Shown here piece by piece: positions 11,361-60,305 of a stretch of 64,000 bases of DNA. Source of the stretch: Duganella dendranthematis. Lineage in GTDB: Bacteria > Pseudomonadota > Gammaproteobacteria > Burkholderiales > Burkholderiaceae_D. The translations under genes were made by a program, and so were the position numbers. Below the pieces are notes generated by a model. It worked only from the letters and a program-made list of their open reading frames with translations, was not told the origin of the DNA and ran no database searches. Where the stretch lies: assembly GCF_012849375.1 (NCBI RefSeq), contig NZ_CP051684.1, positions 4,960,001-5,024,000 on the forward strand. Direction: 5' to 3'. How positions within the stretch are numbered: position 1 is the stretch's first letter; each line of letters opens with the position of its first letter.

Positions 11361-11840
11361 ATGCTTACCTGTGCCCTTATCACAGTCAGCAACACACGAA
11401 CCGCCGCCGACGATGATGCCGGCGATTTATTGGCCGCCAATCTGGAACAGGGCGGCCATCGTGTTTTGCGGCGCGAGATTGTGTTTGACGATATCTACCA
11501 GTTGCGCCGCGCCTTCAGCGAATGCATCGCCGATCCGCAGATCGATGTAGTGATCAGTAGCGGCGGTACTGGCTTTGCGCGCCATAATTCGGTGCCGGAG
11601 GCGGTGGAAGTGTTGTTCGATCAGCCGATCCCCGGCTTTGGCGAGCTGTTTCGCCAGCTATCGTATAACGACATCGGCTCGGCCGCAATCCAGTCGCGCT
11701 GTGTGGCGGGTATCGCCAACGATACCTTGATCTTCTGTTTGCCCGGATCGCCGGGCGCCTGTGCTCTAGCCTGGAACTACATCCTACGGTCGCAGCTGGA
11801 TCACCGCACCCGTCCCTGCAACTTTGCCTGCCGCAGCTGA
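11361..11840 (+). CDS. MoaB/MogA-like molybdenum cofactor biosynthesis protein
   Basis: A 159-residue protein with the MoCF-binding fold. Typical stretches are LITVSNTRTAADDDAGDLL, the GGTG loop (VISSGGTGFARHNSVPEAVE), GFGELFRQLSYNDIGSAA and the LPGSPGAC loop. The family adenylylates molybdopterin or binds it before metal insertion. It starts 8 bp after the bestrophin gene with AAAGGA upstream, so it belongs to the FdhF operon and may load cofactor into that enzyme. Its last 57 bp are antisense to the end of the REC-EAL gene on the other strand. Confidence 0.9.
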   Translation: MLTCALITVSNTRTAADDDAGDLLAANLEQGGHRVLRREIVFDDIYQLRRAFSECIADPQIDVVISSGGTGFARHNSVPEAVEVLFDQPIPGFGELFRQLSYNDIGSAAIQSRCVAGIANDTLIFCLPGSPGACALAWNYILRSQLDHRTRPCNFACRS

Positions 11841-13058
11841 TTTGCCGCTCCACAGCGGCAGTGCAGCGGCCGGCATCGGCCTGGCGATCAGGTAACCCTG
11901 CGCCAGGTCGCATCCCAGTTCGCGCAACAGCAGGCGATCCTGTTCCAGCTCTATGCCTTCCGCCACGCTGGTGACGCCGATTTCGTGCGCGGTGGCGATG
12001 GCGTGGCGCAGCAACGCTTGCATGTGCGGGCGCTTGCTGGCGTTGTGCACCAGGCGCCGGTCCAGTTTCAGCTCGGTGAACGGGAAGCGTGACAGCTGCA
12101 ACAGCGAGGCGTAGCCGGCGCCGTAATCGTCCAGTGCCAGGCCGAAGCCGTGCATGCGCAGCTTGATGAGGATGCGCAGCGCGGTGGCCAAGTCGGCGAT
12201 TTCCTCATGCTCGATAATCTCGAAGGTGATGGCGCGCGGCGGCACGCCGGCGTCGTTGACGGCCTTGATCAGCTGTTCCGCAAGGTGCGGATCGGCCAGT
12301 GACAGCGGCGACAGATTGATCGAGATCGGCAGCGACAGGCCATCGGCATGCCAGCGGCGCCAGTCCTTGAGCGCGATGCGGACCACTTCTACGGTAAGGA
12401 TATCGACCAGGTTGGCCGCTTCCGCCTGCGGCAGGAAACAGGCCGGCGACAACAGGCCGTGATGCGGATGGCGCCAGCGCAGCAAGGCTTCGGCGCCGCG
12501 CAGAACGCCGTCATGCAGGGCGGTCTTGGGCTGGTAATACAGTTCGAATTGGTGCTGCTGCACGGCGCCGAGCACTTCACCGGCGTCCGGCCGTGGCACA
12601 TTGGCGTCGCAGCGCGGCCGCAAGGCCAGCAGGGCGGCGCTGCGGGCGGCGGCGGGTGCGCAGCCCTGGACCAGGTCCTGCAGTGCTTGTGCTTCCAGTG
12701 GCTTGTTCAGGGCACCCAGCGCTTCCAGTCCCAACGTGGCGGCCAGCGTCAGCGCAGCGTCGTGCAGGCGCGCGCTGTGGCGGCTGACCAGCACTACCGG
12801 CAGGCCGGGTTCCAGCATGGAGAGGGCTTGCAGCAGGTCGGTGCCGTCCATGTCGGGCAGGTCGAGTTCCGTGACGACCAGGTCGGGCGGCAAGGGCAGG
12901 GACTCAATCAGTTCCAGTGCGCCGGCGCCGCAGTCGGACCAGCCGTTGACGATGATGCCGGCGGCGCGGCATTGTGCGACGGTGGCTTCCAGGTCCGCCG
13001 GGCAGTCGTCGATGACGACGGCGCGCAGCGCGAATGCGGTGTCGGGGAAGCGGGTCAT
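11784..13058 (-). CDS. Receiver-EAL protein (cyclic di-GMP phosphodiesterase) with altered phosphorylation site
   Basis: A 424-residue soluble protein. Residues 10-130 form a CheY-like receiver with the acidic pair (VVIDD) and the conserved Lys (LNKPLE). At the position of the phospho-accepting Asp there is Glu64 (DLVVTELDLPDMDG), so it may be locked in one state. Residues 170-415 form an EAL domain with EALLRWRHP, ISINLSPLSL, FEIIEHEEI, DDYGAGYAS and KLDRRLV; catalytic residues appear kept, although DDFGTGYSS is varied. The start overlaps the stop of the chemoreceptor gene upstream (ATGA), giving translational coupling. Confidence 0.93.
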   Translation of the reverse strand: MTRFPDTAFALRAVVIDDCPADLEATVAQCRAAGIIVNGWSDCGAGALELIESLPLPPDLVVTELDLPDMDGTDLLQALSMLEPGLPVVLVSRHSARLHDAALTLAATLGLEALGALNKPLEAQALQDLVQGCAPAAARSAALLALRPRCDANVPRPDAGEVLGAVQQHQFELYYQPKTALHDGVLRGAEALLRWRHPHHGLLSPACFLPQAEAANLVDILTVEVVRIALKDWRRWHADGLSLPISINLSPLSLADPHLAEQLIKAVNDAGVPPRAITFEIIEHEEIADLATALRILIKLRMHGFGLALDDYGAGYASLLQLSRFPFTELKLDRRLVHNASKRPHMQALLRHAIATAHEIGVTSVAEGIELEQDRLLLRELGCDLAQGYLIARPMPAAALPLWSGKSAAAGKVAGTGAVIQLRP

Positions 13059-14659
13059 GACGGCACCATCAAGCGTGGGGTGCGATTATCAGCAGGGGCA
13101 GGGGCAGGGGCGATCTTGAAGCGTGAGACGGCATTCTCCAGCTGTACCGACTGTTCTTGCAGCGCGTGCGCGGCGGCGGCAACTTGTTCCACCAGCGCGG
13201 CGTTCTGCTGCGTGCCATGATCCATCTGCACCACCGCCTGGCTACAGGCCAGGATGCCGGCGCGCTGCTCGCTGCTGGCATGCTTGATCTGCGCCATGAT
13301 CTGCTCCACGTTGGCGACACTGTCGACGATGTCCTGCATGGCTCCTGCGGCTTCGCGCACCTGCTGGTCGCCGGCGCCGACCTGCTGCACCGCCGCCTTG
13401 ATCAAGTTGCCGATGTCGCGCGCCGCTTCGGACGAGCGGTGCGCCAGCTGGCGTACTTCGCCCGCCACCACGGCAAAGCCGCGTCCCGCATCGCCGGCGC
13501 GAGCCGCTTCCACGGCGGCGTTGAGCGCCAGGATGTTGGTCTGGAAGGCGATACCGTCAATCAGGCCGATGATGTCCGCCATCTGCGCGGCCGAACCGCG
13601 TATCGCTTCCATGCGTTCTGTGACGGCGGCTACCGCCTGGCCGCCCTTGCCGGCCATCGAGGAGGCGTGCGACGCCAGCGTGTTGGCGCGCGCCGCGTGG
13701 TCGGCGTTCTGCTGCACGGTGGCGGTCAGTTCCTCCATGGCGGCGGCGGTCTCCTGGAGACTGGATGCCTGCTGCTCGGTGCGGGCCGACAGATCGAGGT
13801 TGCCGCTGGCGATCTGGCTGGAGGCGGAGGTGATCATCTCGGTATCGGAGCGCACTTGCGCCACCAGCTGGCTAAGGTTATCGCGCATGTGCTCCATTTC
13901 ATACAGCATGCTGCTACGGTCGCCGTGGCGCAGCGCGATGGCGCGCGTCAGGTCGCCGTCGGCGATGCTGGCGGCGGTGCGCGCCGCCTGATCCGGTTCG
14001 CCGCCCAGGTCGCGCCGCAGGCGGCCGATGATGGCGGCGGCCACGCCGATCGAGATCAGCATCGCCGCCGCACCGAGCGCCAGCATCTTGAGGCGGGTGG
14101 CGGCGTAGGCTTCCACCGCCTGCTCTCGGGCGGCGCGCATCAACGACACTTCGTTGCTGATCTGCGCTGCCAGCGTTTCGCGGCAGGCTTGCAGCATCGG
14201 CTTGACGTGCGTGTTCAGGTAGTCGCGCGCTTCGTCATCGCGGCCGGCCTGCACCAGTGAGATGAGCTTTTTCTGGCCAACGACGTAGTCCTGATAGGCG
14301 CTGCGCAGCTTGTCCAGCGCCGCGCGGCCGGCCGGCGTCACCACGCGCTTATCCAGTTCGGCGATCTTGCTTTCGGCGTCGCGGCGATAGCCTTCGATGC
14401 TGTCGATCTGGTGCGCTCGCACGGCGGAATCGGTAGTCAGCATCAGGTTGCGCAGCGAGACCGCGATATCGGTCACGCGCAGGCGCACGTCGGTGGCCAG
14501 TTCAATTTTCGGCCAGCGGTCGTCGGCCATGGTGGCGGCGGCGTCATTCAGTTTGGCCTGTTCCGACAGGCCCAATGTAATGACGGCGGCAAGAAACAGG
14601 CAAATCAATCCGAAGCCGATCATCAGGAGATTGGCGACTTTGATGCGAGCGGTTTTCAT
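13055..14659 (-). CDS. Methyl-accepting chemotaxis protein with four-helix-bundle sensor
   Basis: A 534-residue chemoreceptor. Membrane helix 1 lies at about 10-30, the periplasmic 4HB_MCP-type helical sensor at 35-190, membrane helix 2 at 190-212, then a HAMP-like stretch (ARTAASIADGDLT) and the long signalling coiled coil with its tip ([38 protein letters not shown]). It ends in a Pro/Ala tail without a CheR-binding pentapeptide. The REC-EAL gene follows with a 4-bp overlap, so chemotaxis and cyclic di-GMP control are likely co-expressed. The MocR-type regulator gene ends 62 bp upstream on the same strand. Confidence 0.95.
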   Translation of the reverse strand: MKTARIKVANLLMIGFGLICLFLAAVITLGLSEQAKLNDAAATMADDRWPKIELATDVRLRVTDIAVSLRNLMLTTDSAVRAHQIDSIEGYRRDAESKIAELDKRVVTPAGRAALDKLRSAYQDYVVGQKKLISLVQAGRDDEARDYLNTHVKPMLQACRETLAAQISNEVSLMRAAREQAVEAYAATRLKMLALGAAAMLISIGVAAAIIGRLRRDLGGEPDQAARTAASIADGDLTRAIALRHGDRSSMLYEMEHMRDNLSQLVAQVRSDTEMITSASSQIASGNLDLSARTEQQASSLQETAAAMEELTATVQQNADHAARANTLASHASSMAGKGGQAVAAVTERMEAIRGSAAQMADIIGLIDGIAFQTNILALNAAVEAARAGDAGRGFAVVAGEVRQLAHRSSEAARDIGNLIKAAVQQVGAGDQQVREAAGAMQDIVDSVANVEQIMAQIKHASSEQRAGILACSQAVVQMDHGTQQNAALVEQVAAAAHALQEQSVQLENAVSRFKIAPAPAPADNRTPRLMVPS

Positions 14660-14721: not shown

Positions 14722-16179
14722 CTACAGATTCGCCTTTTGACGAGGAGCACAGTTGGCCAGTTCGCCGGCCAGCAGGCCAAGCGTACGCACGGCCGCTTCC
14801 ACTTCCGGCGTCCACGGGTAGCTGTAGTTAAGGCGTATGCAATGCTGGAAGGCGTCGCCGGTGGCGAAGATATTGCCGGCGCCGACGCTGATGCCGCGCT
14901 CCTGCGCCCGCGCATACAGTTCCAACGCCTGTATGCCGTCCGGCAGGTTCACCCACAGCAGGTAGCCGCCGACCGGCGTCGACACCAACGTCCCGGACGG
15001 GAAGAAGCGCCGCACCGCCGCCGCCATGATGCTGGCGTTTTGCGCGTAGGCCTTGCGCACCTTGCGCAGGTGGTAGTCGTAACCGTCGTTCTTCAGGTAC
15101 TCGGCAATCGCCAACTGCGGCAGTGCGGGGGTGTTGAGCGTGTTGAGGAACTTGAGCTTCTCCACCTGCGCGCGATAACGGCCGGGCAGCGCCCAGCCGA
15201 TGCGGTTGGCGGGACTGAGCGTCTTGGAGAACGAGTTACAGTGCAGGACCAGGCCGCGCGTGTCGTAGTTCTTCAGCGAGGTTGGATGGACATCGCCGTA
15301 ATACAGTTCGTGATAGACGTCGTTCTCGATCACCGGCACGTCGTGCCGCGTCAGCATCTCCACCATGGCGCGTTTGCGCTCATCGCTCATCTGGTAGCCC
15401 TGCGGGTTCTGGAAGTTGGGCATGACCATGCAGGCCGCTACGCCCCGCTCGACAATCGCGCGTTCCAGTGCTTCGAGGTCGATGCCAGTCACCGGATCGG
15501 TGGGGATCTCCACCACCTGCATGCGCATGCGCTCAATCGCCTGCAGCAGCGCGTAATAGGTGGGCGATTCCACCGCGATCACGCTGCCGGGCGGCGCCAC
15601 CGCTTGCAGGCAGAGGTTGAGCGCCTCGGTGGCGCCGGTGGTGATGATGATTTCGCCGGCGTCCACCGGCAGGCCGTTCTCCAGATGGCGACGGGCGATC
15701 TGGCGTATCAGCTCTGGATTCCCCGGCGGCAGGTCGGCCGTCATGCCCATCTGGCCGGCGCGGCGCGCCAGGCTGTTGGCGTATTGGTTCAGCCGCGCCC
15801 ACGGAAAGCTGGCCGGATCGGGATAGGGCGAACCCAATGGCACGCTGCCCTGGTTGATCGAACGCAGGGTGGTGAGTACGAATTCGCTGGTGTCCAGCGT
15901 TTCGCCGCGCGCCATGTCGGCCGGCCCGGTTGGCGCGGCCGTATCGCCAGCGGCGCTGGCCTGCACCGTCGGTTTGCGGCGCACGAAGTAGCCGGACTGC
16001 GGCCGGCTTTCGATCACGCCCTGGCTTTCCAGCAGCAGGAAGGCACGGATGACGGTGGAGACGCTCAAATTGTGGTGTTGGCTGGTCTGGCGCACCGAGG
16101 GGATTTTCTCGCCCTCGCGTATTACCCCCTGCGCGATCTGGCTGGCGATATCGGCCGCCAGCGTTTCATACAATTTCAC
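14722..16179 (-). CDS. MocR/PdxR-type regulator: GntR helix-turn-helix fused to aminotransferase fold
   Basis: A 485-residue protein from a GTG at 16179 with GGGAGA six bases upstream; the longer open frame would run through the divergent kinase gene and is not real. Residues 1-75 are a winged helix of GntR type (GEKIPSVRQTSQHHNLSVST, ESQGVIESRPQSGYFV). Residues 90-470 are a class I aminotransferase fold with the PLP lysine in SFSKTLSPANRIGW near residue 317. MocR proteins use PLP or an amino compound as effector and usually control a divergent gene; here that would be the sensor kinase at 16349. The target could equally be elsewhere. Confidence 0.9.
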   Translation of the reverse strand: MKLYETLAADIASQIAQGVIREGEKIPSVRQTSQHHNLSVSTVIRAFLLLESQGVIESRPQSGYFVRRKPTVQASAAGDTAAPTGPADMARGETLDTSEFVLTTLRSINQGSVPLGSPYPDPASFPWARLNQYANSLARRAGQMGMTADLPPGNPELIRQIARRHLENGLPVDAGEIIITTGATEALNLCLQAVAPPGSVIAVESPTYYALLQAIERMRMQVVEIPTDPVTGIDLEALERAIVERGVAACMVMPNFQNPQGYQMSDERKRAMVEMLTRHDVPVIENDVYHELYYGDVHPTSLKNYDTRGLVLHCNSFSKTLSPANRIGWALPGRYRAQVEKLKFLNTLNTPALPQLAIAEYLKNDGYDYHLRKVRKAYAQNASIMAAAVRRFFPSGTLVSTPVGGYLLWVNLPDGIQALELYARAQERGISVGAGNIFATGDAFQHCIRLNYSYPWTPEVEAAVRTLGLLAGELANCAPRQKANL

Positions 16180-16201: not shown

Positions 16202-16313
16202 ATACCAAGAGTAGCTGATTGCGGTGCGGCCGGCACTATACCTCGGAATAGGGAGTTGGAACATAACCGTATACAGGAGTATAGGATGCAAGTCGTCGAA
16301 ACCACACTATAAT
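16202..16313 (+). promoter_or_regulatory. Regulatory region between the MocR-type gene and the kinase gene, with TATAC-N4-GTATA dyad
   Basis: A perfect inverted repeat TATAC-AGGA-GTATA lies at 16270-16283. Looser relatives begin near 16202 (TATACCAAGAGTA) and 16236 (TATACCTCGGAATAGG). A consensus -10 (TATAAT, 16308-16313) precedes the kinase gene but no -35 element is present. A start about seven bases after the -10 puts the dyad centre near -43, the position used by class II activators. An identical dyad precedes the receiver gene at 18528. The binding protein is not known; the FixJ-like regulator at 17796 and the MocR-type protein are candidates. Confidence 0.55.
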
Positions 16314-16348: not shown

Positions 16349-17809
16349 ATGCTTCGGGTACCGCGTTCTCCATGGATGTCTGCGTTGTTGATTTTGCTGA
16401 TGCTGTTGATCTTCGCGATCGACACGTTTTCACCGCTGGACATGGCCATCGCCGTCATGTACGTGGTGGTGGTACTGCTGTCGGCCGGCATCTGGGCTCG
16501 GCGCGGCGTGCTGCTGGCCAGCGCCGCCTGCCTGGCGCTGACGGTGCTGTCGTATGCGGTGACGCACAGCGAGGCGTTTTCCGCCGCCGCTTCCGGGCGC
16601 CTGCTGGTCGGGCTGCTGGCGATTGTGGTCACCACGGTGCTGGTACTGCGCGGCCAGGCCGCCACCGATGAGCTGCTGGCGCGCGAAGATGCGCTACGCC
16701 GTAGCGAGGCCTTTTTGGCCGGCACCCAGCGCATCAGCAAGACCGGCAGCTTCAGTTTCAAGGCCCCCAACGGCGCCATGTTCTGGTCCGACGAGGCGGC
16801 CCGCATCTATGGCTATCCGCTCGACGTCGAGCCGACCATGGCGCGCGTGCTGGCCCATACCGCGCCGGAAGACCGCCATATCGTGCAGGCGGCGATCGAC
16901 CAGTCGTTGCGCTGCGAAGGTGACATCGACATCCGCCATCGCCTGCTGATGCCGGATGGGGAACTCAAATATGTGCACGTGCTGTCGCGTCCACGCTACA
17001 ACAAGGACGGTGACTGCGAATATCTGGGTGCGCTGACCGACGTCACGGCGGCGGTGCTGGCCGAACAAGCGCTGCACCGCTCGCAGGTGCAGCTGGCGCA
17101 CGCCACCCGCGTCACCATGCTGGGCGAGCTGGCGGCGTCCATCGCGCATGAGGTCAATCAGCCATTGGCGGCGATATCGACCAATGGCGAGGCCTGTTTG
17201 CGCTGGCTGAATCGTCCCAAGCCGGAACTGGACGAGGCCAAGGCCACCGTCACCAGCATCCTGGAGTCGAGCGCGCGCGCCACCGGCGTGATCAAGCGGA
17301 TCCGCGCGCTGGCGCGCCGCACCGACCCGACTTATACGGGGCTGGACCTGAATGCGGTGGTGGAGGAGAGCGTCGACATGGTGCGGCGCGAACTGAATAA
17401 CCACCACGTGGCGCTGATGCTGGGACTGACGCCGGACCTGGCGCCGGTCAACGGCGACCGCGTGCAGCTGCAGCAGGTGTTCATCAACCTGCTGATGAAC
17501 GCGATCCAGGCCATGGGCACGTGCGCGCCCGGCCAGGCGGTGCTGACGGTGCAGACGCAGCGCAATGCCGACGGCGCGCTCCAGGTCAGCATCAGCGACT
17601 CCGGTCCCGGCATCCCGGCCAGCGCCGTGCCACGGCTGTTCGAAGCCTTCTACAGCACCAAGGAAGACGGCATGGGCATGGGACTGCCGATCTGCCGCTC
17701 CATTATTGAAACCCACGGCGGCCGGATCTGGGTCCGGGAGCCGGCGCCAGACAGCCCTGTGGCCGGCGCCACCATTCTTTTCACATTGCCTGTTCATGAA
17801 CCAGATTGA
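16349..17809 (+). CDS. Membrane sensor histidine kinase with PAS domain (FixL-like partner)
   Basis: A 486-residue kinase. Several membrane helices occupy about 10-105 (LLILLMLLIFAIDTF, AIAVMYVVVVLLSAGI, LLVGLLAIVVTTVLVL). A PAS fold follows at 125-235 (FWSDEAARIYGYPLDVEPTM, DGELKYVHVLSRPRY). The phospho-acceptor His is in SIAHEVNQPLAAIS near residue 265. The ATPase domain (350-480) has NLLMNAIQAM, DSGPGIP and GMGMGLPICRSI. The HEVNQPL box is typical of kinases paired with FixJ/NarL-type regulators, and such a gene overlaps its end by 14 bp. The membrane part may be the sensor; the signal is unknown. Confidence 0.94.
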   Translation: MLRVPRSPWMSALLILLMLLIFAIDTFSPLDMAIAVMYVVVVLLSAGIWARRGVLLASAACLALTVLSYAVTHSEAFSAAASGRLLVGLLAIVVTTVLVLRGQAATDELLAREDALRRSEAFLAGTQRISKTGSFSFKAPNGAMFWSDEAARIYGYPLDVEPTMARVLAHTAPEDRHIVQAAIDQSLRCEGDIDIRHRLLMPDGELKYVHVLSRPRYNKDGDCEYLGALTDVTAAVLAEQALHRSQVQLAHATRVTMLGELAASIAHEVNQPLAAISTNGEACLRWLNRPKPELDEAKATVTSILESSARATGVIKRIRALARRTDPTYTGLDLNAVVEESVDMVRRELNNHHVALMLGLTPDLAPVNGDRVQLQQVFINLLMNAIQAMGTCAPGQAVLTVQTQRNADGALQVSISDSGPGIPASAVPRLFEAFYSTKEDGMGMGLPICRSIIETHGGRIWVREPAPDSPVAGATILFTLPVHEPD

Positions 17810-18425
17810 CTATTCCGACGCCCTGGTCTACATCGTCGACGACGAGGCGCAGCTGCGCGACGCCATTTCCAGCCTTTTGCGCTCGGTCGGCATGCAGGTG
17901 GCGGCTTTTCCGTCGGTGGCCGCGTTCCTGGCCGAGCCGCGGCGCGATCTGACCAGCTGCCTGCTGCTGGACGTGCGCCTGCAAGGCCTCAGCGGCCTCG
18001 ATTTCCAGGCCGAGCTGAATCGCGACGGCGTGGCGCTGCCCATCATTTTCATGACCGGCCATGGCGACATTCCGATGTCGGTGCGGGCCATGAAGGCCGG
18101 CGCGGTGGATTTCCTGGCCAAGCCGTTCCGCGACCAGGACCTGCTGGACGCCATCCACACGGCGCTGGCGGCCGACCAGGCGCGGCGCCTGCGCGACCAG
18201 GCCAGCGACGGCCTGACCGCCCGCTATGCGACGCTGACCCCGCGCGAGCGCGAGATCATGGCGCTGGCGGCGCGGGGGCTGATGAACAAGCAGATCGCCG
18301 GCGAAGTGGGCACCAGCGAGATCACGGTCAAGATCCATCGCGGGAACGCCATGCGCAAAATGCAGGCCAAAACCTTCGCCGATCTGGTGCGGATGGCCGA
18401 AGCGCTGGGGCTGGCCAAGGTTTAG
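17796..18425 (+). CDS. FixJ-family response regulator
   Basis: A 209-residue regulator whose ATG lies 14 bp inside the end of the kinase gene, so the pair is translationally coupled. The receiver spans 1-125, with the acidic pocket (YIVDDE), phospho-acceptor Asp59 (LLLDVRLQGLSG), FMTGHGDIPMSVRAMKAGAV and the Lys in LAKPF. The LuxR/FixJ helix-turn-helix spans 140-205 (LTPREREIMALAARGLMNKQ, then IAGEVGTSEITVKIHRGNAM). It should dimerise on phosphorylation and bind an inverted repeat near -42. Dyads of suitable size precede the kinase gene and the next operon. Confidence 0.95.
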   Translation: MNQIDYSDALVYIVDDEAQLRDAISSLLRSVGMQVAAFPSVAAFLAEPRRDLTSCLLLDVRLQGLSGLDFQAELNRDGVALPIIFMTGHGDIPMSVRAMKAGAVDFLAKPFRDQDLLDAIHTALAADQARRLRDQASDGLTARYATLTPREREIMALAARGLMNKQIAGEVGTSEITVKIHRGNAMRKMQAKTFADLVRMAEALGLAKV

Positions 18426-18431
18426 CCCACC

Positions 18432-18447
18432 TATACCCTTGTATAAT
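18432..18447 (+). promoter_or_regulatory. TATAC-CCTT-GTATA dyad overlapping the -10 of the receiver/PDE/chemoreceptor operon
   Basis: A perfect inverted repeat TATAC-N4-GTATA at 18432-18445 has the same arms as the one at 16270-16283. The -10-like TATAAT (18442-18447) overlaps its right arm. Overlap with the core promoter would fit repression, in contrast to the activator-like spacing at the first site, unless the true start lies further down. Confidence 0.45.
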
Positions 18448-18476
18448 TTTCTCAATTCGCGCTGAACTGTATTGTT

Positions 18477-18521
18477 CTCCCATGCGCTGGACGGCCGCGA
18501 GCCGCCGTCCGAACATGGGAG
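18477..18521 (+). promoter_or_regulatory. Leader hairpin that sequesters the ribosome binding site of the receiver gene
   Basis: CTCCCATG (18477-18484) pairs perfectly with CATGGGAG (18514-18521). Inside it GGACGGC (18489-18495) pairs with GCCGTCC (18504-18510), with an 8-nt apical loop and a small internal loop. The only Shine-Dalgarno sequence for the GTG start at 18528, GGGAG at 18517-18521, is fully inside the outer stem. No T-run follows, so it is not an intrinsic terminator. It looks like a translation-control element (thermosensor, protein- or sRNA-opened switch); which one is not known. Confidence 0.55.
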
Positions 18522-18527
18522 TCACCA

Positions 18528-18929
18528 GTGTCAGATCCGGATCCAAAATTTTGTAATATCGCTATCGTTGACGACGACGAAGCCGTTCGCGTCGGTCTGC
18601 GTAGCCTGCTGCGCTCCTACGGCTACGCCGCCAATGCCTATGATTCCGCCTTGGCCCTGCTGGCCTCCGGCGCCCTGGGCGACTATCACTGCGTGATCAC
18701 CGACCTGCAAATGCCCGGCATGAGCGGCATCGAGCTGCTGGAGCAGCTGCGTCGTAGCGGCAATCCGCTGCCATTGATCCTGATGACCGCCTTCCCGGAA
18801 GCGAACCTGTGCAAGCGTGCCTTGCAAGGTGGCGCCTCCTGCTTTTTGAGCAAGCCCTTTGAAGCGAACGAATTGCTGCGTTGCCTGAATCAGGCCAGCG
18901 GCAGCTTCCCGACCCACGCCGAGGAGTAA
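18528..18929 (+). CDS. Single-domain response regulator (FixJ-type receiver without output domain)
   Basis: A 133-residue protein from a GTG start, made of one receiver domain only. It has the acidic triplet (IAIVDDDEAV), phospho-acceptor Asp59 (CVITDLQMPGMSGIELL), the Thr in LILMTAF and the Lys in LSKPFEANELL. The sequence is closest to receivers of FixJ type, so it may take phosphate from the kinase at 16349 as a sink or relay. The GGDEF/EAL gene starts 6 bp after it. Translation is probably limited by the leader hairpin. Confidence 0.92.
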   Translation: MSDPDPKFCNIAIVDDDEAVRVGLRSLLRSYGYAANAYDSALALLASGALGDYHCVITDLQMPGMSGIELLEQLRRSGNPLPLILMTAFPEANLCKRALQGGASCFLSKPFEANELLRCLNQASGSFPTHAEE

Positions 18930-18935
18930 CAAACC

Positions 18936-20864
18936 ATGAAACACACCATCAGCAGTTCGCGTCGTCTTATTTATTTGTTACTGCTGCTGGTGATCGTCGC
19001 CAGTGTCACGCTGTCGATTTTCATGGAGCGCACTGCGCACAATATCCGCCACAACGAAACGCCGCTGCTGAACCGCACTATCCCGCAGATGCGTTACCTG
19101 GGCGATTTTGAAAGCGCCTTGCTGCGCTACCAGCTGGCGCTGGACAAACGGTTTACGGATTCGATCACGCCGGACCGCTTCCAATTTTTGGAAAGCATGG
19201 GCCGCAGCGAACTCGAAGCCACACTGGAGCAACTGCGTCCCAGCCTGGGCGATGGCCCGGAGCTGGGTGCACTGCGCGCCGGCTACCAGCGCATTATCCA
19301 GCTGACCCCGGAATTTGAACGCCAGGTCGGCGCCGATCCAGACGCCGCCCGCGCGGTGCTGATCAAGATGAATGAGGAAGTCAAGCAGCTGCGCCTGCGG
19401 GTCGATGGCCTGCAACAGGGCGTGGAAGACGCCATCTACGACAATGGCACCATGGCCAACCGCGCCATCGGCTGGATCACCGGTCTGGTACACGTGTTCG
19501 ACGTGCTGGCGCTGGTGACCTGTTTGTTCATGCTGTACCACGTCCGGGCCCGGGTGCGGGTGGAGGATGAACTGAGCCACCAGGCGCGCCACGACCCGCT
19601 GACCGGCCTGGCCCATCGGCGCAGTTTCGAGGCGCGCCTGGCGTCGCTGCCGGCGCTGCCGCATGTGGTGGTGCTGGGCACCATCGATCGCTTCTCGCGC
19701 ATTATCGGCGGCTTTGGCCACGCATTCGGCGACCGCGTCATGATCGGCCTGGCGGGGCGCATCCGCAGCGCAGCGGAACGCCATGGCGGCGAGGTGTTCC
19801 GCCTGGACGGCGCCAACTTCGCCATCCTGTTCCGCACCGACTGTAGCGACCTGGCCTTCTCCGAAGCGCTGTCGGTGCTGCGGGATGAAGTCCGCAACCC
19901 TTATGACTGCGAAGGCCACGAAATCTACACCACCCTGAGCCTGGGCGCGGTCAACTATCCGCAGCACGGCGCCAATCCGGACGTCCTGCTGCGCAATGCC
20001 GACGCCGCGCTGCAAGCGGCGCGCAAGGCCGGCGGCGACAGGCTGGAAGTCTACTCGCAACAACTGAATGCGGAAGCCGGCGAACGCCTGGACATGGAAG
20101 CGCTGCTGCGCCATGCGGTGGAACGCGAGGAACTGGAACTGCATTATCAGCCGCAGCAATCGCTGAGCGATGGCAGCTTGATCGGCTTCGAGGCGCTGGT
20201 GCGCTGGCGCCGTCACGGCAAGCTGATTTCGCCAGCGGAGTTCATTCCGCTGGCCGAGGAATCGGGACTGATCGTCTCGATCGGCAACTGGGTGCTGGAA
20301 GAAGCGGTCAGACAGATCAGCGTGTGGCAGGCGGAAACCGGCCAGCGCGTAGCGGTGGCGGTGAACATCTCGCCACGCCAGTTTGCCGCGCCGGGCTTCC
20401 TGGCGCACCTGGAAGACCTGCTGGCCACCAGTCATGTCGATCCTTCCTGCCTGGAGCTGGAAATCACCGAGAGCGTGATGATGGAAGGCGCCGAAAGCGC
20501 GATCGCCTTGCTGCACCGCCTGCGTGCACTGGGACTCAAGCTGGCCATCGACGATTTCGGCACCGGCTATTCCAGCCTGGCCTATCTGTCGCGCTTCCCG
20601 ATCCACAAGCTGAAAATCGACCAGTCCTTCGTTCGCAATATGCATGCGGTCAGCGAGCAGAGTGCGATTGTGCAGGCCACCATCAGCCTTGGCCACGCGC
20701 TGGGCATGACGGTGATCGCCGAAGGCGTCGAGACCGAAGTGCAGCGCGCCATGCTGAGTGGCTGGCGGTGCGACGAGATTCAAGGTTACTACTACAGCCG
20801 CCCGCTGCCAGCGGCATCCGCGCTGGACTTCCTCGAAGGCAGCCTGCAACTGCAGGCTGCATAA
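18936..20864 (+). CDS. Membrane EAL phosphodiesterase with degenerate GGDEF domain
   Basis: A 642-residue protein. Membrane helix 1 is at 10-30, a mostly helical periplasmic region at 30-175, helix 2 at about 178-200. The GGDEF-type domain (215-380) has DGANF where GGDEF should be and lacks an inhibitory site, so it cannot be expected to make cyclic di-GMP and may bind GTP as a regulator. The EAL domain (390-635) keeps FEALVRWRR, VNISPRQF, EITESVMM, DDFGTGYSS and KIDQSFV, so phosphodiesterase activity is likely. It sits between a lone receiver and a chemoreceptor in one operon. Confidence 0.93.
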   Translation: MKHTISSSRRLIYLLLLLVIVASVTLSIFMERTAHNIRHNETPLLNRTIPQMRYLGDFESALLRYQLALDKRFTDSITPDRFQFLESMGRSELEATLEQLRPSLGDGPELGALRAGYQRIIQLTPEFERQVGADPDAARAVLIKMNEEVKQLRLRVDGLQQGVEDAIYDNGTMANRAIGWITGLVHVFDVLALVTCLFMLYHVRARVRVEDELSHQARHDPLTGLAHRRSFEARLASLPALPHVVVLGTIDRFSRIIGGFGHAFGDRVMIGLAGRIRSAAERHGGEVFRLDGANFAILFRTDCSDLAFSEALSVLRDEVRNPYDCEGHEIYTTLSLGAVNYPQHGANPDVLLRNADAALQAARKAGGDRLEVYSQQLNAEAGERLDMEALLRHAVEREELELHYQPQQSLSDGSLIGFEALVRWRRHGKLISPAEFIPLAEESGLIVSIGNWVLEEAVRQISVWQAETGQRVAVAVNISPRQFAAPGFLAHLEDLLATSHVDPSCLELEITESVMMEGAESAIALLHRLRALGLKLAIDDFGTGYSSLAYLSRFPIHKLKIDQSFVRNMHAVSEQSAIVQATISLGHALGMTVIAEGVETEVQRAMLSGWRCDEIQGYYYSRPLPAASALDFLEGSLQLQAA

Positions 20865-20884
20865 ATCAGAATTAGGAGATCGAC

Positions 20885-22552
20885 ATGAACTGGTTCCGCA
20901 ATCTGAAGATCGCAAAAAAGCTGAATGTGGTGGTGGCCGCCGTGCTGGCGATGATGATGGCGCTGGGGGTGTTCTCCGTGTTCCAGCTGTATGAGCTGGA
21001 CCGCGTGACCAATGAAATCGACCATCGCTGGGCGCCGGGCGTGCGCAATGCGCTGGACATCAAGTACGGACTGACGCGCTTCCGCACCTTTGAGCTGTTC
21101 CATGTGGTGTCGACTGAACCCGACATCCTGCGCAAGTACGAGCAGGATATGGAAAACCAGATGCAGCAGGTGCAGGCGTCGCTGAGCGCCTACGCGGCCC
21201 AGCCGCGTAGCAGCGCGGAACTGGACATCGTGGCGCAATTGCAGGTCTCGATGAATGCCTACCGTGGCGCGGTGCGCCAGGTGGTGGCCTTGTCGCGCCA
21301 TGGCGACGACGCCGGCGCGCTGGCCGTGGTGCGCGGCGAATCGCGCAAGTATGACTTTGAGGCGATGGCGCTGATCGACAAGCTGGTCGCCATCAACGAA
21401 GCGGGCAGCGCCCAGGCAGCGCTGTCGGCGGACCAGACCTACCGCCATGCGCGGCACCTGATCTTCGCTTTCATGGCCGGTGCGCTGATGCTTGGCCTGC
21501 TGCTGGCGGCGCGTGTGGCGCGCATGATTTCGGTGCCGCTGGCGCGCGCCGTGGACGTGGCGCGCCGGGTGGCCGAGGGCGACCTGCGGGTGGATGCTGA
21601 TATCGCCGGCCGCGATGAAACCGCCGAACTGCTGCGCGCCATGAACCAGATGAGCACCAACCTGCAACGTATGGTGACGCAGGTACGCGGCGGCACCGAC
21701 ACCATCGCCACCGCGTCGGCACAGATTTCCGCCGGCACCAGCGATCTGTCGCAGCGCACCGAAGGCCAGGCGGCCACGCTGGAAGAAACCGCTGCCACCG
21801 TGGAAGAACTGACCACCACCGTCGCCGACAACGCCGACAAGGCGGAGCAGGCGCACAAGCTGATGGACCAGACGGCGGCCGTGGCGCGTGAGGCCGAAGT
21901 GGCGGTATCGGCGGTGACGGCGACCATGGAGCGCATCAGCGCCTCGTCGCGCCGCATCGGCGACATCGTCGGCCTGATGGACGGTATCGCCTTCCAGACC
22001 AATCTGCTGGCGCTGAATGCGGCGGTGGAAGCGGCGCGCGCCGGTGAGCAGGGACGCGGCTTTGCCGTGGTGGCGAGTGAAGTACGGGCGCTGGCCCAGC
22101 GCAGCGCGCAGTCAGCCAAGGAAATCAAGGATCTGATCGCGCAATCGCTGACGGAAGTGAACAGCGGCGGCCAGGCAGTGAAGAACGCCAGCGCCACCAT
22201 CGACGATGTGGTGCAGGGCGTGCTGCGCGGCGCCACGCTGATGGGCGATATCAGCAGCGGCACGCGGGAGCAGAGCCTTGGCCTGCAACTGGTGAATCGC
22301 ACGCTGGCCTCGATGGACAGCGTGACCCAGCAGAACGCCACGCTGGTGGAGGAATCGCTGGCCGCCATCGTCTCGCTGCAGGAGCAGGCGGAGCGCCTGG
22401 CGCGCAGCGTCAGCGTGTTCAAGCTGGCCGGCAGCGCAAGGCAAGAGCTGGCGGTGATCGAGATGCCGCAGCCGCAGCGCCAACGCAGCCGGCCGGCGCC
22501 GGTTTACAGCACCGGCATGGCGTCGTCAGGCTACGTGGCGGGACTGGTCTGA
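20885..22552 (+). CDS. Methyl-accepting chemotaxis protein with four-helix-bundle sensor
   Basis: A 555-residue chemoreceptor starting 20 bp after the phosphodiesterase gene, with TTAGGAG upstream. Membrane helix 1 is at 12-35, a helical periplasmic sensor at 36-190, helix 2 at 195-215 ([20 protein letters not shown]), then HAMP ([20 protein letters not shown]) and the signalling coiled coil with tip ([20 protein letters not shown]). It is the third gene of the receiver-PDE-chemoreceptor operon, linking taxis to cyclic di-GMP turnover. Its last 22 bp overlap the remnant oxidoreductase gene on the other strand. Confidence 0.95.
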
Positions 22553-59373: not shown

Positions 59374-59440
59374 AAAAAAAAGCCCGCTACAGGAGCGGGC
59401 TAAATCTATTTCCTTGGAGGAGAATAGAGGAGACAACTGC
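59374..59440 (-). ncRNA. Candidate CU-rich small RNA with strong terminator
   Basis: On the minus strand a stem AGCCCGCT/AGCGGGCT (59382-59402, 5-nt loop) is followed by nine T residues, a strong intrinsic terminator with no protein gene ending there. A weak promoter-like pair TTGCAT-17-CATTAT lies upstream. The RNA between them would be about 65 nt and contain two CTCCTC motifs, complementary to Shine-Dalgarno sequences. It might instead be an attenuated leader of the gene at 59297. No expression evidence is available. Confidence 0.35.
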
Positions 59441-59952: not shown

Positions 59953-60029
59953 GCGGCTGTAGCTCAGCTGGATAGAGTACTTGGCTACGAACCAAGGGGT
60001 CGTGGGTTCGATTCCTGCCAGCCGCACCA
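59953..60029 (+). tRNA. tRNA-Arg (anticodon ACG), copy 1
   Basis: 77 nt with CCA encoded. The acceptor stem GCGGCTG/CAGCCGC closes perfectly, the anticodon loop CTACGAA gives ACG, and the T loop is GGGTTCGATTCC. It decodes CGU/CGC/CGA after A34 deamination. Confidence 0.98.
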
Positions 60030-60101
60030 CTAGTTTTACCGGGAGAATTGGAAGATTCTTCTGTTTTTAAACAAGAAAGTGCTGTTATAATCTTGTTTTG
60101 C

Positions 60102-60178
60102 GCGGCTGTAGCTCAGCTGGATAGAGTACTTGGCTACGAACCAAGGGGTCGTGGGTTCGATTCCTGCCAGCCGCACCA
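60102..60178 (+). tRNA. tRNA-Arg (anticodon ACG), copy 2
   Basis: Identical to copy 1 over all 77 nt. A TATAAT lies 11 bp upstream (60086-60091), so it may also be started independently. Spacer to copy 1 is 72 bp. Confidence 0.98.
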
Positions 60179-60228
60179 AAATTTAGTAAATAGTCGGATG
60201 TCGTAGTCCGGCTATGATGTAGTGTTTC

Positions 60229-60305
60229 GCGGCTGTAGCTCAGCTGGATAGAGTACTTGGCTACGAACCAAGGGGTCGTGGGTTCGATTCCTGCCAGCCG
60301 CACCA
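60229..60305 (+). tRNA. tRNA-Arg (anticodon ACG), copy 3
   Basis: Identical to copies 1 and 2. Spacer to copy 2 is 50 bp. Followed by the cluster terminator. Confidence 0.98.

Follow-up and report, generated by a model that had tools for sequence, protein, structure and literature searches.

FixT is a single-domain receiver that is induced by the FixLJ two-component system and inhibits the autophosphorylation of FixL; FixT proteins other than that of Caulobacter are reported to lack the 4-Cys motif (PMC7078487). In the VieSAB three-component system of Vibrio cholerae, the receiver-bearing protein VieB inhibits the kinase, and the system is tied to the control of cyclic di-GMP (c-di-GMP), according to a paper whose keywords assign a TPR domain to VieB (PMC4352251). 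The Roc system of Pseudomonas (RocS1-RocA1-RocR) is presented in two articles as a branched network that joins kinases with several response regulators (PMC12051241, PMC3083521). We analysed a window of 64,000 nucleotides of the Duganella dendranthematis genome (contig NZ_CP051684.1, positions 4,960,001 to 5,024,000; coordinates below are those of the window), which contains a locus of five signalling genes coding for a sensor histidine kinase (HK), a FixJ-type response regulator, a receiver-only protein, a GGDEF-EAL protein and a methyl-accepting chemotaxis protein (MCP). With a probability of about 0.55, we read this locus from its sequence as a FixJ-type system with positive autoregulation, whose co-induced receiver would feed back on the kinase and whose phosphodiesterase and chemoreceptor would be co-transcribed with that receiver. 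Such a circuit would work like FixLJ-FixT or VieSAB, yet it lacks defining features of each. Among the papers listed by literature searches in an open library, none describes this locus in its title or the beginning of its abstract.

According to the list of open reading frames (ORFs) and to Pfam, the five genes occupy positions 16349 to 22552 of the plus strand. The coupled or short spacing reported in a preliminary description of the locus is borne out by their coordinates. The HK (16349-17809) has four hydrophobic, predicted transmembrane (TM) segments and PAS_3, HisKA (with His267) and HATPase_c domains. Its gene is overlapped by that of the FixJ-type regulator (17796-18425; Response_reg and GerE, i.e. 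a receiver and a LuxR-type helix-turn-helix). The receiver gene (18528-18929) starts with a GTG codon 102 bp past the FixJ gene and codes for a 133-residue protein with Asp59 as the phospho-acceptor. Pfam detects only Response_reg in it, so that it has no output domain and, as described earlier, no DNA-binding domain. The genes of the GGDEF-EAL protein (18936-20864) and of the MCP (20885-22552; 4HB_MCP_1, HAMP and MCPsignal) follow after gaps of 6 and 20 bp, respectively. The preliminary description had called the former an EAL protein; the EAL domain is indeed present with all the residues that we checked intact, but the protein also harbours a degenerate GGDEF domain (DGANF) and two hydrophobic, predicted TM segments. 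The host genome is a single contig of 6.53 Mb, and the closest named relative in our scan is Duganella levis, whose receiver is 96% identical.

The locus resembles the FixLJ-FixT systems of Caulobacter crescentus and Sinorhizobium meliloti in that a FixJ-type regulator and its kinase are accompanied by a single-domain receiver. Its induction by FixJ is proposed here from a shared palindrome and −10 spacing. Nevertheless, the NCBIfam equivalog cut-offs are reached by neither the kinase (FixL, 195 against 850 bits) nor the regulator (FixJ, 195.5 against 255 bits), the operon has additional phosphodiesterase and chemoreceptor genes, and a NarL-type regulator gene located elsewhere is a further candidate target. 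The four predicted TM segments of the kinase are another difference. FixL proper has a haem-binding, oxygen-sensing PAS domain; the window HK has a PAS_3 domain, which many relatives lack: ten loci of group g27 and loci L041, L311 and L312 show no match to residues ~137-230 of the window HK. Unlike the Caulobacter FixT, the receiver has no 4-Cys Fe-S cluster. Recurrent Cys residues are found at alignment columns 63 (28 of the 29 usable rows), 113 (20) and 127 (23), the row of L175 being left out, and they are not clustered. Single-domain receivers of the FATGUY type carry the motif of that name after the conserved Lys-Pro, where our protein reads SKPFEAN. It is also a bare receiver devoid of TPR by Pfam, in contrast with VieB, and the EAL function resides in a membrane protein of its own that has no receiver, in contrast with VieA of VieSAB. 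RocR is an EAL-domain regulator; unlike in REC-EAL proteins of the RocR/PvrR type, receiver and EAL are here on separate proteins.

The scan of named genomes yielded 73 loci encoding relatives of the receiver. We took as orthologs those of 13 Duganella loci (L031-L043) and of Janthinobacterium sp. PC23-8 (L044), with receiver identities of at least 59%. The HK, FixJ and receiver genes are contiguous and followed by the EAL gene in 12 of the 13 Duganella loci; in L041, which lacks this arrangement, the receiver gene is 2.8 kb away from the FixJ gene. The MCP gene is present in 11 of them (not in L033 and L041), and over all loci it is missing more often than the EAL gene. We also surveyed 74 whole genomes of the genus (receiver, E≤1e-35; HK, E≤1e-98; EAL, E≤1e-130). 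Receiver orthologs were found in 25 genomes and HK orthologs in those same 25, the next-best HK match of any genome being at 8.8e-76. By match coordinates the two are <0.9 kb apart in 23 genomes and 3.3-3.5 kb apart in G572 and G590. The EAL ortholog is present in 21 of the 25 genomes and in none of the others, and at these cut-offs no genome of the 74 has it without the receiver. Thus, the synteny raised as a question in the preliminary description extends past the kinase/FixJ pair.

The reverse situation was found, as G089, G572, G577 and G578 encode the HK and the receiver with no EAL ortholog detected at E≤1e-130. Furthermore, the cut-offs miss diverged copies. Five genomes counted as negative (G583, G555, G587, G500 and G536), which are those we read among the negatives and were picked for a related HK core, have HK, FixJ and receiver genes, with receivers 46-48% identical to ours and no EAL ortholog found. 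In these sister genomes a NarL-type regulator (47-49%) is encoded downstream of the three genes, preceded in G583 by a HisKA_3-like kinase as judged by eye from the ORFs. The sister loci L306-L310 thus carry the FixJ system, the receiver and the NarL-type regulator together. Outside the genus, HK, FixJ, receiver and EAL genes are found in the g6 loci (L136, L166 and L167) and in all ten g27 loci of our set. At E≤1e-130, a search of 245 genomes of the family for the EAL protein gave 20 genomes, which belong to 4 of the 44 genera; the EAL paralogs of L168-L171 (g27) and L177 (g23) have no FixJ match alongside. In an order-level draw of 300 genomes including our own, 48 have some match to the EAL protein at E≤1e-100, and besides our own only G197 matches it nearly over its full length (39%), with no FixJ or receiver match in the region around that gene. 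The receiver goes with the kinase and FixJ, not with the EAL gene.

A palindrome of the form YATAC-N4-GTATR is located upstream of both the HK and the receiver genes. The copy of the HK-FixJ promoter is TATACAGGAGTATA (16270-16283) and that of the receiver-EAL-MCP unit is TATACCCTTGTATA (18432-18445). Their centres are each 34 bp from that of a −10 element on the plus strand, TATAAT (16308-16313), and of a −10-like element, TATTGT (18470-18475), respectively. We compared 39 loci, namely 20 of the Duganella type, L044, three of g6, ten of g27 and the five sister loci; they were picked for holding HK, FixJ and receiver genes, and many are close relatives and not independent. In all 39, the palindrome precedes the receiver gene (38 strict copies and one with one mismatch) and is followed at 34 bp, centre to centre, by TANNNT, which occurs in at most two loci at any other offset between 12 and 49. 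The HK promoter was compared in 24 loci (Duganella type, L044 and g6). Of these, 17 have a strict palindrome, 3 a copy with one mismatch and 4 a copy with three or four mismatches; TATAAT is found at +34 in 19. The centre of the palindrome is ~43 bp upstream of the start implied by the −10 element, which we take to be the class II position of LuxR/NarL-type activators. A fixed spacing of 34-35 bp at several promoters fits an activator. The shared operator dyads of the preliminary description are real, but within the locus they mark the HK and receiver transcription units, with no strict copy before the FixJ, EAL or MCP genes. A second palindrome with one mismatch (16237-16250) lies between the HK gene and the divergent gene of a MocR/PdxR-like regulator (14722-16179, minus strand) in part of the Duganella loci.

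The strict form, YATACNNNNGTATR, occurs four times in the 6.53-Mb genome: at the two promoters, within an ORF, and 63 bp before an unlinked gene for a NarL-type regulator, a candidate further target that the preliminary description had missed. Orthologs of this gene (E≤1e-108) are present in 21 of the 74 genomes, all of them among the 25 with the receiver (G120, G538, G566 and G567 lack it). All 21 have a strict palindrome upstream, with a best −10 offset of 35. The palindrome is kept before the receiver gene in three of the four genomes without the NarL-type gene (L134, L311 and L312; G567 was not read), which makes FixJ the likelier binder. Based on position, spacing and co-occurrence, we consider it likely that FixJ activates three targets, namely the HK-FixJ operon, the receiver-EAL-MCP unit and the gene of the NarL-type regulator.

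Other strict copies were noted in relatives. L306-L310 have one before the receiver gene and one at or just past its end. G577 (L261 5426) and G590 (L263 5372) have one between genes that by eye are KpsF/KdsD-like and, divergently, KefB/C-like; the same letters occur in G578, and this site is not among the strict sites of our own genome. We also considered that the MCP operon of g27 might itself bear the palindrome, and dropped the idea. The G530 copy lies before the genes of a HisKA_3-like kinase (by eye) and a NarL-type regulator, with MCP and GGDEF-EAL genes further on, and all three palindromes of that genome fall within 11 kb at the locus; in G142 it precedes what appears by eye to be an SDR-like gene. 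No strict palindrome was found at the more distant FixJ-receiver pairs L141, L009, L010, L012 and L045.

The acidic pair, the acceptor Asp and the Lys are invariant in the 39 receivers, and the Thr/Ser position is Thr in 38 and Ser in one. Compared with the FixJ of its own locus, the receiver is 48% identical in helix alpha1 and 31% in the remainder. The pattern is the reverse for 28 other receivers, taken from 20 hand-picked loci and set against the window FixJ alone, with 30% identity in alpha1 and 43% in the remainder. In 17-residue windows, the greatest relative retention covers alpha1 and the greatest loss covers alpha4 (FMTGHGDIPMSVRAMKA). Helix alpha1 carries kinase specificity, and alpha4-beta5 forms the dimer face of FixJ. 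Together, the phosphorylation site and the FixJ-like docking helix are compatible with a receiver that would take phosphate from the same kinase. That the receiver might be a recent duplicate of its FixJ was rejected from a tree of 62 receiver domains (17 hand-picked loci of the 39, and the 28 other receivers), in which the receivers form one supported clade and the FixJs another (98/93 and 97/89). By eye, the two clades branch alike.

We propose that the membrane kinase would sense a signal and phosphorylate the FixJ-type regulator, which in its phosphorylated form would bind YATAC-N4-GTATR, centred 34 bp from the −10 centre as expected of a class II activator. It would thereby switch on the HK-FixJ operon, the receiver-phosphodiesterase-chemoreceptor unit and the unlinked NarL-type gene. 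The induced receiver would then use its alpha1 helix, which resembles that of FixJ, to dock on this same kinase and limit signalling, either by taking phosphate or by inhibiting the kinase, in a feedback akin to that of FixT or VieB. The phosphodiesterase and the chemoreceptor would be outputs induced along with this feedback, and the phosphorylation state of the receiver could also reach the NarL branch. We slightly favour the feedback step itself, as the receiver follows the kinase and FixJ, its docking face is kept, and FixT and VieB provide precedents.

Several observations weigh against this proposal. The strict palindrome is not enriched genome-wide, with four copies against three of a reversed control pattern in our genome and 37 against 22 in eight other genomes (3-6 each; control, 1-5). 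A relaxed scan with up to two mismatches was uninformative (224 forward and 232 reverse, against 296 and 261 for the control). On the HK side, the palindrome has three or four mismatches in L041, L135, L315 and L166, and for each of the five sister loci the closest match upstream of the HK start that we assumed has three, so autoregulation is not universal. In five of the ten g27 loci the script picked an HK-side copy with one mismatch and no −10 element at +34; in the remaining five it picked a copy on the side of the MocR gene, which carries a strict palindrome in eight of the nine g27 loci examined (L172 has no MocR match). In 37 of the 39 receiver promoters, TATRAT spans the right half of the palindrome, which makes repression possible at this promoter. 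As for the docking helix, 6 of the 28 other receivers equal or exceed the alpha1 identity of the window receiver, so this evidence is supportive rather than proof, and the common residues may partly reflect ancestry. The co-occurrence of the genes may also follow the shared descent of one clade. A search for TTGACA/TATAAT promoters between 16150 and 22800 gave no match, a weak negative as shuffled sequences give 1.5 ± 1.3.

Thirty-one EAL orthologs (at least 50% identity) have DGANF (29), EGANF (1) or DGANI (1) at the GGDEF site. In all of them the EAL motif is identical, and so are eight other positions of this domain; the residues compared include those we take to be catalytic. With intact EAL residues and a degenerate GGDEF site, the protein is predicted to be a c-di-GMP phosphodiesterase. 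These data bear on a first alternative, in which FixJ and the lone receiver would each be phosphorylated by the kinase, and phosphorylation would let the receiver act directly on the adjacent phosphodiesterase or on the chemoreceptor, so that one branch of the pathway is transcriptional and the other runs through c-di-GMP. In each of the 21 genomes of the genus with an EAL ortholog, the receiver and EAL matches are at most 270 bp apart, and the phosphorylation site of the receiver and the EAL residues are intact throughout. Nevertheless, the N-terminal part of the EAL protein is variable, the alignment of many relatives starting no earlier than residue ~154-181, and the receiver is retained in the four genomes of the 25 and the five sister genomes without an EAL ortholog. 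The preliminary description had proposed that the receiver could act on either of these neighbouring proteins. We consider this alternative unlikely, also given that the MCP gene is absent from even more loci than the EAL gene. The accompanying claim, that the two-component system is linked to c-di-GMP and taxis, is supported at the level of gene control, as one type of palindrome ties both units, whereas direct receiver action finds no support in our data.

Somewhat less likely still, the receiver might only be a sink for phosphate, or a leftover that is transcribed along with the outputs, and have no dedicated regulatory role. Its identity in the g6, g27 and L044 loci, at 38-59%, is below that of FixJ, at 67-80%. 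However, its phosphorylation residues are kept in all 39 loci and it always accompanies the HK in the 25 genomes. In L135 it keeps its palindrome promoter even though the next gene runs in the opposite direction. A sink alone would amount to a mild form of the feedback that we favour. Lastly, that the palindrome serves a repressor or another regulator such as the NarL-type protein or MocR, with FixJ controlling other genes, is improbable: the TATRAT overlap and the copies borne by the NarL-type gene and, in g27, by MocR speak for it, but the palindrome persists before the receiver gene where the NarL ortholog is missing (three genomes) and where no MocR match adjoins the locus (L044, L136 and L312; MocR was not sought elsewhere), and the constant 34-35 bp spacing fits an activator.

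Just 5' of the ribosome-binding site of the receiver gene is a GC-rich hairpin (18489-18510, plus strand) whose inner stem shows compensatory changes. In an alignment of 20 of the 39 loci, five pairs are changed on both sides, and none of 500 shuffles scored as high; the hairpin is absent from L037 and L042. We considered a longer RNA stem masking the ribosome-binding site. It is unsupported, as all five two-sided changes lie in the inner hairpin. The window strand does fold into it, with a z-score of −1.89 (12 of 200 shuffles at least as good), and L135, L041 and L315 have a broken outer arm. If the −10 element at +34 is right, that arm is mostly upstream of the transcription start. The inner hairpin itself is unproven.

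On the far side of the MocR gene, the minus strand codes for a REC-EAL protein of RocR/PvrR architecture (11784-13058) and a second MCP (13055-14659), whose genes overlap by four bases; among the 13 named Duganella loci, 8 have both of them next to the MocR gene. No strict palindrome was found in this stretch (11784-14659). Rfam gave no match within the five-gene locus at gathering scores. Elsewhere in the window, it matched a Betaproteobacteria toxic small RNA (59374-59435, minus strand) near three tRNA-Arg (acg) genes (59953-60305).

More speculatively, and with doubt on our part, the receiver might be the obligate third component of a FixJ-system family that we did not find described. Having kept the docking face and shed the dimerization face, it would brake the kinase, and its phosphorylation state would inform the output of each lineage, be it a phosphodiesterase, a chemoreceptor or a second, NarL-type two-component system under the same operator, in a modular two-tier network that has this receiver as its single built-in feedback element. 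To our knowledge, the FixJ-induced feedback receivers known so far are alphaproteobacterial. If our reading is true, kinase, FixJ and receiver stay together in this betaproteobacterial family and the outputs vary, which would show by what rewiring a core that includes its own brake comes to control c-di-GMP, chemotaxis or a second regulator. The candidate operator of these loci is defined, and the loci themselves provide about forty natural variants.

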